A stretch of 32,148 bases of DNA from Microcaldota archaeon (GTDB taxonomy: Archaea > Micrarchaeota > Micrarchaeia > Micrarchaeales > Micrarchaeaceae), in contig JAJZVQ010000005.1 of the NCBI GenBank assembly GCA_021845575.1, positions 1-32,148 on the forward strand, read 5' to 3'. Positions within the stretch are counted from its first letter, which is position 1. The number at the start of each line of letters is the position of its first letter. The position numbers and the translations under genes were made by a program. Below, one piece after another: positions 8,215 through 32,134 of this stretch. The notes beneath the pieces were generated by a model. It ran no database searches and was not told where the DNA came from. It saw only the letters and a program-made list of their open reading frames with translations.

Positions 8215-8319
8215 GCGAGGGTGGCAGAGCATGGTCAAATGCGCAGGACTGAGGTTTTTGGCTAAATCAGAACTCCTGTGTCTTTAGTGACTGCGAGAGT
8301 TCAAATCTCTCCCCTCGCA
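8215..8319 (+). tRNA. tRNA-Leu (anticodon GAG) with an 18-nt canonical anticodon-loop intron
   Basis: The acceptor stem is GCGAGGG with CCCTCGC and discriminator A8319. The D-arm is GCA/TGC with GG in the loop. The anticodon stem CAGGA/TCCTG encloses CTGAGG then C, giving anticodon GAG. The long class II variable arm is 8278-8294, and the T-arm GAGAG-TTCAAAT-CTCTC is intact. Intron 8255-8272 lies at position 37/38. The precursor forms a textbook bulge-helix-bulge: CTGA pairs with TCAG, flanked by 3-nt bulges GGT and AAC, with TTT/AAA closing the inner loop. CCA is not encoded. The gene lies between rpoD and rpl18e and must share their transcript unless it has its own promoter inside rpoD. Confidence 0.96.
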
Positions 8320-23637: not shown

Positions 23638-24330
23638 TCAATGTATTGACAATGTAAATTCAATAAGCTTTATTTTGAGTTTTTTTAAAGGTATTATATC
23701 TTCTTTTTTGACAAAATCCTGCATTTGGCCAACATATCTATGTTCTGTCCAAGAATTTATAATTCTTGCAAATTCCGCCTTGTCAAATGAAAAAGGTTCT
23801 TTAGAATGCTTGCATTTATAATTTACTTCGAACAAGTTGCATGTTGTACCTCTTTCCAGAATTTTATAAGCATCCCATAAATCCTTGCCTTCTTTACGCT
23901 CAACTATCGCCCTCACTTTTTCAGCCAGTATTTCGTCAAGCTCCATTACACGCACAAAGTACCTGTGCCCGTTTTCCGAAATCAAATTTGTTTGGCCGAC
24001 ATTCTTTTTTATAACATCTCTAAGGTATGAGATATCAATGCTTGATTTTAATTCACCTACCTTAAATTCTATGGTATTGGATGAAAGACTTGTGATTGTC
24101 AATCCGATACCTTCAATAAAATCTTTTATTTGATAGGTAATATTTCCATATCCAGGTCCTATATACGATAAATCAATATCTTTCGAAAACCTGTTTAGAT
24201 TATACACTTTTGCCAGTGCAGTGCCACCTTTGAAGATTACAAGCTCTGATAGTATAGAATCGCTGAATATATATTCCAGTATATCATCCAAAACTAAAGA
24301 CAGCTCCTTCTTCGTTTCATTTTTTATCAT
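23638..24330 (-). CDS. abiEii: AbiEii/AbiGii-type nucleotidyltransferase toxin
   Basis: The 230-residue protein shows the AbiEii polymerase-beta-like signature VIFKGGTALAKVYNLNRFSKDIDLSY (G35-G36-T37, D51, D53). A later basic/acidic motif AEKVRAIVERKEGKDLWDAY contains the K and D conserved in the family. Type IV/AbiE toxins transfer nucleotides, with tRNA acceptor ends as targets in characterised members. Its ATG overlaps the antitoxin stop by 4 bases (ATGA). Only chromosome-maintenance genes lie nearby and the pair is bounded by 28-bp direct repeats, so lateral acquisition is likely. Confidence 0.93.
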   Translation of the reverse strand: MIKNETKKELSLVLDDILEYIFSDSILSELVIFKGGTALAKVYNLNRFSKDIDLSYIGPGYGNITYQIKDFIEGIGLTITSLSSNTIEFKVGELKSSIDISYLRDVIKKNVGQTNLISENGHRYFVRVMELDEILAEKVRAIVERKEGKDLWDAYKILERGTTCNLFEVNYKCKHSKEPFSFDKAEFARIINSWTEHRYVGQMQDFVKKEDIIPLKKLKIKLIEFTLSIH

Positions 24331-30297: not shown

Positions 30298-31026
30298 ATG
30301 ATAGAAATAAAGATATTCGGAAATGTGGATTTTGCAGATTTTACATTTATAGAGGGTTTTCCAGGTGTGGGGTTAGTAGGACCGATGAGTATAAGTTATA
30401 TAATAAACCAGCTTAATCTAGAATATGTCGGGTATATAAAAAGCGACCTATTCCCGCCATTGGTGTCAATACACAACAATATACCTCTCCCCCCGGTAAG
30501 GTTATATTATTCAAAGGAATACAAAATTCTCACGCTTTTTGCAGAAGTAGGGCCCATAGCTGAAGATTATATATATGAGATATCAGATGGAATATACAAT
30601 TTTATTAAAAGCCAAAAAATACATCAAGTAATTTCTATAAGCGGCGTTCCCGTACATAACACCGAAAATAAAGGAGTATTTGGAATAGCATCGACCAATG
30701 AAGGGATAAACGAACTGGTTAAAGTGGGCATAAACAAGGTCGGAGAAGGTGTGGCTACAGGAATAAGCTCATTAATCATAACACAATCAACGTTGGACAA
30801 TCTTTTGGACTTTAACCTGCTTATACCGGTAAATCCGGATATAATAGACCCAAAATACGCGGAGCTCGCAATACAGAGTATCAACAAAATTCTTAACATA
30901 GACATAAATATAAGCGAATTGGATAAGGAGGCAAAAATAGTGGAAAGCAAAATCAAGGACCTCGTAAAGAAAAGCAAGGAATCAAAGGCATACAATAATG
31001 ACTCAGGCAATGTTATGTATGTGTAA
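30298..31026 (+). CDS. PAC2-family protein (proteasome assembly chaperone-like)
   Basis: The 242-residue protein shows the archaeal PAC2/PbaB-like pattern FIEGFPGVGLVGPMSISYIINQL near the start, DLFPPLVSIHNNIPLPPVRLYY, the ISGVPVHNTENKGVFGIAST block, and GVATGISSLIITQSTLDNL. A basic/acidic helical tail follows, and the residues after it (KESKAYNNDSGNVMYV) end in a hydrophobic-tyrosine tail of the HbYX-like form (M-Y-V) seen in proteasome-binding chaperones. Function as a proteasome assembly or activator protein is inferred from the family. ATGATTTT precedes the ATG. Confidence 0.85.
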   Translation: MIEIKIFGNVDFADFTFIEGFPGVGLVGPMSISYIINQLNLEYVGYIKSDLFPPLVSIHNNIPLPPVRLYYSKEYKILTLFAEVGPIAEDYIYEISDGIYNFIKSQKIHQVISISGVPVHNTENKGVFGIASTNEGINELVKVGINKVGEGVATGISSLIITQSTLDNLLDFNLLIPVNPDIIDPKYAELAIQSINKILNIDINISELDKEAKIVESKIKDLVKKSKESKAYNNDSGNVMYV

Positions 31027-31038
31027 TATTTTTAAAAA

Positions 31039-31141
31039 GCAGGGGTAGCAAAGTCTGGTCTGGCTCTAGCCACAGAAAAATGCGCAGGACTTAAGATCCT
31101 GTGGTCTAGCACCTTCGTGAGTTCAAATCTCACCCCCTGCA
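31039..31141 (+). tRNA. tRNA-Leu (anticodon UAA) with a probable D-loop intron of about 17-19 nt
   Basis: The acceptor stem is GCAGGGG with CCCCTGC and discriminator A31141. The anticodon arm CAGGA-CTTAAGA-TCCTG gives anticodon TAA with no intron at 37/38. The variable arm is class II, and the T-arm GTGAG-TTCAAAT-CTCAC is intact. The D-stem GCA/TGC encloses 30 nt instead of the 13 seen in the window's other tRNA-Leu. The excess folds as a bulge-helix-bulge-like motif: TCTG (31054-31057) with CAGA (31073-31076), a 3-nt bulge GTC, inner helix TGGC/GCCA and a 4-nt A stretch before the D-stem. Excision of about 31060-31078 would leave a normal D-loop with GG. CCA is not encoded. Confidence 0.9.
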
Positions 31142-31212: not shown

Positions 31213-31728
31213 ATGGCAGAAACGAAGATTTACATTGCGGATGCGGTCGACGCAAAGCTTAGAGAGATTGCAATGGAACGGTTTGGCTATGGCAGAGGGT
31301 CGATAAGTAGTGCCGTAGAAGAAGCAATAATCCAATGGTTGAGCACACAACATGCAATAAAGAATAAGATACAGGAAATAATAAAAACTGCTGAGAAAGA
31401 CAGACATGTCATTGCCATTCTATTATTTGGTAGTTATGCTAGAAGGGAAAAGAGTTACAGAGACGTAGATATTGCAATTTTGATTGACAAAGAAATTAAA
31501 TCGTTCGATGAGCTTAACAAATATTCAACAATAGAAAATGATATTAAATTTGATATCTCAATACTCAATGATCTCCCTTTGAATGTACAGAGGCGTGTGC
31601 TTAATGAAGCTAAGATTATTTTTCTAAACGATAAAGATAAATTGTATGACTATAGCATACAAATAGCAGAAAAATGGTCTAATTATAGTTATAGGTTTAA
31701 TATTTTAACTGGCGAAAAAAATGTTTGA
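31213..31728 (+). CDS. mntA: MntA-type minimal nucleotidyltransferase antitoxin fused to an N-terminal RHH-like domain
   Basis: In this 171-residue protein residues about 4-45 (KIYIADAVDAKLREIAMERFG, then GSISSAVEEAIIQWL) have the strand-helix-helix layout of a ribbon-helix-helix DNA-binding domain. Residues 65-135 are a minimal nucleotidyltransferase with LLFGSYARREKSYRDVDIAIL (G73-S74, D84, D86) and a third acid D114 in KFDISIL. MntA antitoxins add AMP to a tyrosine of the HEPN toxin HepT (type VII). It overlaps the HEPN gene by 8 bases. Most MntA proteins are single-domain, so the fused DNA-binding module is noteworthy and suggests direct autoregulation. Confidence 0.88.
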   Translation: MAETKIYIADAVDAKLREIAMERFGYGRGSISSAVEEAIIQWLSTQHAIKNKIQEIIKTAEKDRHVIAILLFGSYARREKSYRDVDIAILIDKEIKSFDELNKYSTIENDIKFDISILNDLPLNVQRRVLNEAKIIFLNDKDKLYDYSIQIAEKWSNYSYRFNILTGEKNV

Positions 31729-32134
31729 TAAAGAGCGAATAAAAGAAAAACTATCCAATCTTGAGCTTTATTCAAAGCGGCTTAGCTCGATTGTGCCTAA
31801 AAATTCTGATTCCTACAAAAATGCCGACATTATACTTAAGAGTGCAATCGAGAGAAACCTCCAGCTGGTAAGCGACGTAGAGCTCGATATCCTAGCTCTT
31901 TTATACAAAGGCCTTGAGCTCAAGCTTAGCGGTGACGATCTCTCATTAATAGAGAGCCTGAACGGCAAGCTTAGCAAAAAGAGCATAAATAAAATAAAGG
32001 AAAGGAGAACATTGAGGAATTTGTTGATACATGCATATGCCGATTCCGGCTATGAAGAAGAGTCTTTCAAGCAAGCATACAACACGTCTGATATTATTGA
32101 ATTTATAAAAGAAGTGAGGCAGCTTCTCGCATAG
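31721..32134 (+). CDS. hepT: HEPN-domain RNase toxin (HepT/DUF86 family)
   Basis: The 137-residue all-helical protein has the catalytic HEPN motif R-x4-H-x-Y in RNLLIHAY (R99, H104, Y106). Y106 is the tyrosine type modified by MntA partners. HEPN toxins act as dimeric metal-independent RNases, with tRNA or mRNA as targets. Its ATG lies 8 bases before the end of mntA, so it is translationally coupled. It follows the tRNA-Leu(UAA) gene, a common neighbourhood for acquired modules. The remaining 14 bases of the window are non-coding. Confidence 0.92.
   Translation: MFDKERIKEKLSNLELYSKRLSSIVPKNSDSYKNADIILKSAIERNLQLVSDVELDILALLYKGLELKLSGDDLSLIESLNGKLSKKSINKIKERRTLRNLLIHAYADSGYEEESFKQAYNTSDIIEFIKEVRQLLA

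Follow-up and report, generated by a model that had tools for sequence, protein, structure and literature searches.

The stretch of archaeal DNA analyzed here (the window, 32,148 nucleotides) carries a class II tRNA-Leu(UAA) gene on its forward strand, with an excess of 17–19 nt in the D-loop. The gene for a PAC2-family protein lies directly upstream, and a further leucine tRNA of the window served as an internal control. The assembly that includes the window contig comprises 779 kb and is 94% complete. The relevant features are as follows:

8215–8319, forward strand: tRNA-Leu(GAG) gene, with an ordinary intron in the anticodon loop and the D-loop normal (GCAGAGCATGGTCAAATGC); used as internal control
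30298–31026, forward strand: PAC2-family protein gene (Pfam PF09754), marking the orthologous locus by synteny
31039–31141, forward strand: tRNA-Leu(UAA) gene (from the fold, ARAGORN on the predicted mature form and order-wide homologues)
31039–31045/31134–31140, forward strand: acceptor stem, 7 bp, GCAGGGG/CCCCTGC, with discriminator A31141
31048–31050/31081–31083, forward strand: D-stem, 3 bp, GCA/TGC (from fold and covariation)
31055–31057/31073–31075, forward strand: central helix, CTG/CAG (from the fold and a 54-gene alignment)
31058–31060, forward strand: 5′ bulge GTC, 3 nt, predicted 5′ splice site after 31059 or 31060 (from the fold and intronless D-loops)
31061–31077, forward strand: putative intron in the preferred register, 17 nt, TGGCTCTAGCCACAGAA (from homology); alternative 31060–31078, 19 nt
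31062–31071, forward strand: inner intron hairpin, GGC (31062–31064)/GCC (31069–31071) with loop TCTA (compensatory changes in relatives)
31076–31080, forward strand: A-rich 3′ internal loop, predicted 3′ splice site after 31077 or 31078 (from fold and alignment)

An ARAGORN call of a tRNA-Arg(CCT) at 8215–8319 was discarded as a misreading of the tRNA-Leu(GAG) gene.

The strands of the D-stem are separated by 30 nt, and the remainder of the gene shows an anticodon stem of 5 bp (CAGGA/TCCTG) with the loop CTTAAGA and the anticodon UAA, a variable arm and a T-stem of 5 bp (GTGAG/CTCAC). At minimum energy, the entire gene folds into a cloverleaf of -39.5 kcal/mol (z -3.6), compared to an average of -27.6 for 200 shuffled sequences, none of which (0/200) reached as low a value. 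Here, the D-arm stacks on a TCTG/CAGA helix, the GTC bulge, a TGGC/GCCA helix and the TCTA loop, with AAAA at the 3′ side. This is the same fold, at the same position and with the same perfect acceptor, anticodon and T-arms, as drawn in the initial annotation. T31054 with A31076 forms a marginal fourth pair of the central helix and T31061 with A31072 a marginal extra pair of the inner helix, while G31057-G31058 correspond to G18-G19 of the tRNA. Judged by fold and covariation, the exon–intron borders show the elements of a bulge-helix-bulge (BHB) motif in relaxed form: a short central helix with a bulge on either side. The helices and the 5′ bulge agree with the BHB-like fold proposed before, but the A-rich 3′ “bulge” faces an unpaired AAG and is an internal loop, which makes the motif relaxed and not strict.

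Scans of the window with ARAGORN in bacterial mode and with Rfam at the gathering score missed the tRNA-Leu(UAA) gene, whose RF00005 score is only 21.4 bits. Since neither allows D-loop introns, these misses are not evidence against a tRNA. ARAGORN found no tRNA in the unspliced sequence and called a canonical tRNA-Leu(TAA) after removal of either 17 or 19 nt, in line with the earlier expectation that excision of about 17–19 nt restores a normal D-loop.

Conservation and distribution of the D-loop insert

The insert was compared among 54 tRNA-Leu(UAA) copies from relatives, found by searching with the window gene. It is present in all of them and always built in the same way: CTGG (or CCGG) is followed by a bulge, a hairpin, CAG or CGG, a stretch rich in A and then the D-stem. 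The hairpin is usually closed by GGC/GCC, and its loop ranges from 3 to 18 nt. The three core pairs of the central helix are kept in 54/54 genes, with the middle pair covarying between T-A, T-G and C-G, and the inner helix shows compensatory changes at one pair (C-G/T-G/T-A) and at another (G-C/G-T/A-T). T31054-A31076 is broken (C-A) in 10 of the 54 genes and T31061-A31072 in 7, in both cases uncompensated, so that the firm parts are two helices of 3 bp. Across the whole tRNA, 14 pairs show changes on both sides among the 54 relatives, against a mean of 6.0 in shuffles, and this signal is lost when the pairing partners are slid. RNAalifold, given no structure, predicts the same arms. The structure in the window is not a product of chance. 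Besides that, the D-stem has an A12-C23 mismatch in 18/54 genes (alignment columns 12 and 57; the other forms are A-U and G-C); C-to-U editing or mismatch tolerance may deserve attention here.

A pattern derived from the insert and scanned over the GTDB genomes yielded 95 stretches, and nearly all of the titles listed are Candidatus Micrarchaeota; the titles include Ca. Micrarchaeum sp. A_DKE, ARM-1 and a few bins titled Marsarchaeota. Four of the listed matches bear titles outside this group (a proteobacterium, Bradyrhizobium, Aequorivita and a Methanosarcinaceae bin), and by our own estimate a few chance hits are expected. We infer that the host genome belongs to the order around Ca. Micrarchaeum.

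We searched 196 genomes of the phylum with a covariance model built from the intron-containing gene; 103 of these genomes make up the order with its two families (f1 and f2). Full-length matches of more than 100 bits and at least 101 nt were obtained in 95 of the 103 genomes, and a 96th (G189) carries the intron in a gene cut by a contig end. One member, G003, has an intronless tRNA-Leu(UAA). An exact-pattern search of the remaining six genomes revealed no UAA gene, most likely because the assemblies have gaps or the sequence is a variant one. Outside the order, the best model matches are almost all 84–86 nt long, those inspected have a normal D-loop, and most other families of the class carry an intronless tRNA-Leu(UAA). 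The exceptions are an anticodon-loop intron in G129 (L221) and a longer D-loop intron in G186 (L207). The latter shares with the window intron the gene, the insertion site and a 4-bp central helix with the D-loop CTGG, but it differs in its length of approximately 38 nt and its unrelated inner sequence; the two could have arisen by separate insertions or go back to a single old one. In all likelihood the ancestor of the order (f1 and f2) already had the window intron, and nearly all members have kept it, with one clear loss.

In G003, the same PAC2 gene precedes the intronless tRNA-Leu(UAA), the two being separated by a TnpB-family gene (L225:7073-8305); this position identifies the tRNA gene as the ortholog without the insert. 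It carries GCAGAGCCTGGTCAAATGC and has an anticodon stem and variable arm of the UAA kind, and a genus mate (G028) keeps the intron. Exact intron loss or gene conversion from another leucine tRNA could each account for the G003 gene. Within the window genome, the UAG, CAG, CAA and GAG leucine tRNAs all have normal D-loops, and in a relative (G015) a tRNA-Leu(GAG) copy is intronless. The insert is thus absent from an ortholog, from four leucine tRNAs of the same genome and from outgroup families. The loss in G003 by either route, together with the four normal isoacceptors, indicates that the mature tRNA can do without the insert. The intron persists nearly order-wide, while other tRNA introns are less stable within the order (a close relative lacks the GAG intron). 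For this reason we mention, as a rather improbable explanation, that selection rather than inertia maintains the intron, which may then act before splicing, e.g. as a folding or modification checkpoint of tRNA-Leu(UAA).

Several further elements were observed around these genes. The TnpB-family gene of G003 neighbours the single tRNA-Leu(UAA) of the order that was found without an intron. In the window, a nucleotidyltransferase/HepT-like pair (MNT-HEPN type) lies directly 3′ of the tRNA (31213–32134), and an AbiEii gene is located at 23638–24330. Two genomes (G053:C29, L234:2077-3707; G022:C14, L233:518-573) contain a second copy of the tRNA-Leu(UAA) 3′ half, starting with the anticodon loop. 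In G053, an AbiEi/AbiEii-type toxin–antitoxin pair sits between the gene and its duplicate 1.5 kb downstream, and the arrangement looks like a small integrated cassette.

Predicted splice sites, splicing enzyme and other interrupted tRNAs

At either end of the intron, the predicted splice site may fall at one of two adjacent positions. On the basis of homology, an intron at 31061–31077 seems moderately favored over the 19-nt alternative. Its removal would give the D-arm GCAAAGTCTGGTCAAATGC, the form of intronless leucine tRNAs; among the relatives, D-arms in this register come to 19 nt (GGTCAAATGC) or, for the GGAA group, to 18 nt (GGAAAATGC), and both forms occur in intronless leucine genes. 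An intron of 19 nt (31060–31078), a refinement and not a true rival, would follow from the strict rule of two nucleotides past the 4-bp central helix TCTG/CAGA. It corresponds to the minimum-energy fold, and forcing the 17-nt register costs 5 kcal/mol (-37.8 vs -32.8). However, the 19-nt register leaves D-arm stretches of 16–17 nt, found in no intronless leucine gene inspected (those have 18–19 nt), and its defining pairs are the two lost, uncompensated, in 10 and 7 of the 54 genes. In addition, the clean 4-bp helix CTGG/CCAG of G186 (L207) gives GGTC/AAATGC by the strict rule, a junction of the 17-nt type. The 19-nt register is accordingly possible but the less probable of the two, and strict BHB geometry was set aside as the sole guide to the cut sites after comparison with the intronless genes. 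The junction 31059/31079 proposed initially survives as one of the two registers on grounds of fold geometry, while homology prefers 31060/31078.

Both a splicing endonuclease and a ligase are encoded in the genome. PF01974 matches twice within a single open frame of contig C42, and the 386-aa EndA encoded by this frame aligns end to end with the ARMAN-2 EndA 4FZ2 (565 bits). Its length, this alignment and the two PF01974 matches agree with the epsilon2 architecture, a single chain of approximately 390 aa with three units (alphaN-alpha-betaC). In the ARMAN-2 enzyme, Tyr236, His251 and Lys282 are catalytic, and alanine at Tyr160 or Lys161 abolished BHB and BHL cleavage (PMC6379350, PMC12397907). 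All five residues are identical in the alignment. The window genome, whose endonuclease architecture had been marked for inspection, hence possesses a full-length homologue of the ARMAN-2 epsilon2 endonuclease (PDB 4FZ2, 9W2K) with the catalytic triad and the Tyr-Lys of the substrate (specificity) loop conserved and no notable difference. A similar long endonuclease was found in 59/60 relatives and in most class members tested, and across the class these enzymes have approximately 390–420 aa, most with two PF01974 matches. As the long enzyme is class-wide, it looks older than the window intron, and the idea that it was gained together with the intron was set aside. The ligase RtcB is present in two pieces, each at a contig end.

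A survey of the tRNAs in the window genome by RF00005 matches (n = 37, not exhaustive) gave approximately 18 interrupted genes by our own reading of the sequences. Each of the five weakest matches has an interruption in the D-loop (tRNA-Leu(UAA) of the window and tRNA-Gln(CUG)) or in the T-loop (tRNA-Arg(UCG), tRNA-Ala(GGC) and a tRNA-Ser), and it is such genes that automatic tRNA annotation misses. The D-loop intron of tRNA-Gln(CUG) (C11:90081-90341; L105, L240) has the same fold arrangement as the window gene, so that D-loop introns are less exceptional here than the initial annotation, which called them rare, had assumed. The T-loop introns of tRNA-Arg(UCG) (L241, C42:60200-60700) and tRNA-Ala(GGC) (L242, C32:2900-3200) are near-identical (TTCAAAAT.ATTTCTA...TAGAAATTATGAAAATC), as would be expected after a recent copying of one intron between tRNA genes. 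Furthermore, tRNA-Leu(CAA) (L034, C11:50791-50886) has an 11-nt T-loop insert that includes a GTTC/GAAC helix and is probably an intron of very small size, and the tRNA-Ser (L243, C11:61400-61800) appears to carry an intron in the anticodon loop in addition to that in the T-loop.

Intron or structural extension, and relation to known systems

Altogether, the D-loop excess is very probably a tRNA intron of the BHB class, predicted from the sequence to be excised by a broad-specificity endonuclease. In the precursor, the CTG(G) of the D-loop would pair with the 3′ part of the intron and a hairpin would form inside the intron, leaving two bulges beside a short central helix. An epsilon2-type endonuclease, tolerant of relaxed motifs, would cut in both bulges, and an RtcB-type ligase would join the tRNA halves. 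Excision would free G18-G19 to dock with the T-loop and bring the D-loop back to normal length. We infer the transcription, cleavage, exact cut sites and ligation of the tRNA-Leu(UAA) precursor.

One could also imagine that the insert is never removed and that tRNA-Leu(UAA) functions in this order with an extended, structured D-arm. Order-wide conservation of the insert and the compensatory changes in its helices fit this view, and a structural extension would likewise keep its position and part of its sequence (GGC/GCC). Moreover, the motif is relaxed, two of its eight pairs are not maintained, and the G003 D-arm has a form common to other leucine tRNAs that gene conversion could explain. A working tRNA elbow, however, would not allow a paired G18, and G18 is paired in the precursor with C31073 in 54/54 genes, barring its binding to the T-loop. 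The orthologous G003 gene does without the insert, the loop varies from 3 to 18 nt, and the motif is of a kind cut by the genome's own type of endonuclease; we therefore regard a retained insert as very unlikely. A stable extension conserved in relatives had been named at the outset as the observation that would speak against an intron. The insert is indeed conserved, but what is conserved are the helices of the splicing motif, with a loop free in length and sequence and with G18 locked. It is even more improbable, to a degree that it can practically be neglected, that the window gene is a decayed, non-functional copy and that another tRNA reads UUA codons. Standard tRNA finders do miss the gene, but all of its arms are perfect, covariation is found in every helix, the gene is retained through the order and no other UAA leucine gene was found in the genome. 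The intron reading is favored because the isoacceptors are normal, an ortholog lacks the insert, the central helix locks G18 and ARAGORN calls the tRNA only after removal. With a splicing motif and an encoded enzyme carrying the specificity loop, the D-loop intron originally suggested thus gains support at the level of sequence.

The tRNA-Leu(UAA) of bacteria and plastids is known for a group I intron, which is self-splicing, hundreds of nucleotides long and located in the anticodon loop. The window intron affects the same isoacceptor but is short, lies in the D-loop and is of the BHB kind; no Rfam family match to a group I intron was obtained in the window, and the insert has just 17–19 nt. 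BHB introns at noncanonical positions of archaeal tRNAs, including the D-loop, have been described, as have multiple-intron tRNAs and an enzyme cutting noncanonical introns in ARMAN-1 and -2 (PMC6379350, PMC12397907, PMC4033280). The window intron shares with them the D-loop position, the relaxed BHB motif and the endonuclease family. We found no literature text naming a tRNA-Leu(UAA) D-loop intron or its order-wide retention, which may be contained in Fujishima et al. 2011 (ARMAN tRNAs). D-loop introns and the enzyme being already known, the order-wide retention is the notable part. This order combines dozens of natural variants and one clear loss with a broad-specificity enzyme whose structure has been solved, and thereby offers a ready set for testing how relaxed a motif the enzyme still tolerates and why certain tRNA introns are retained.
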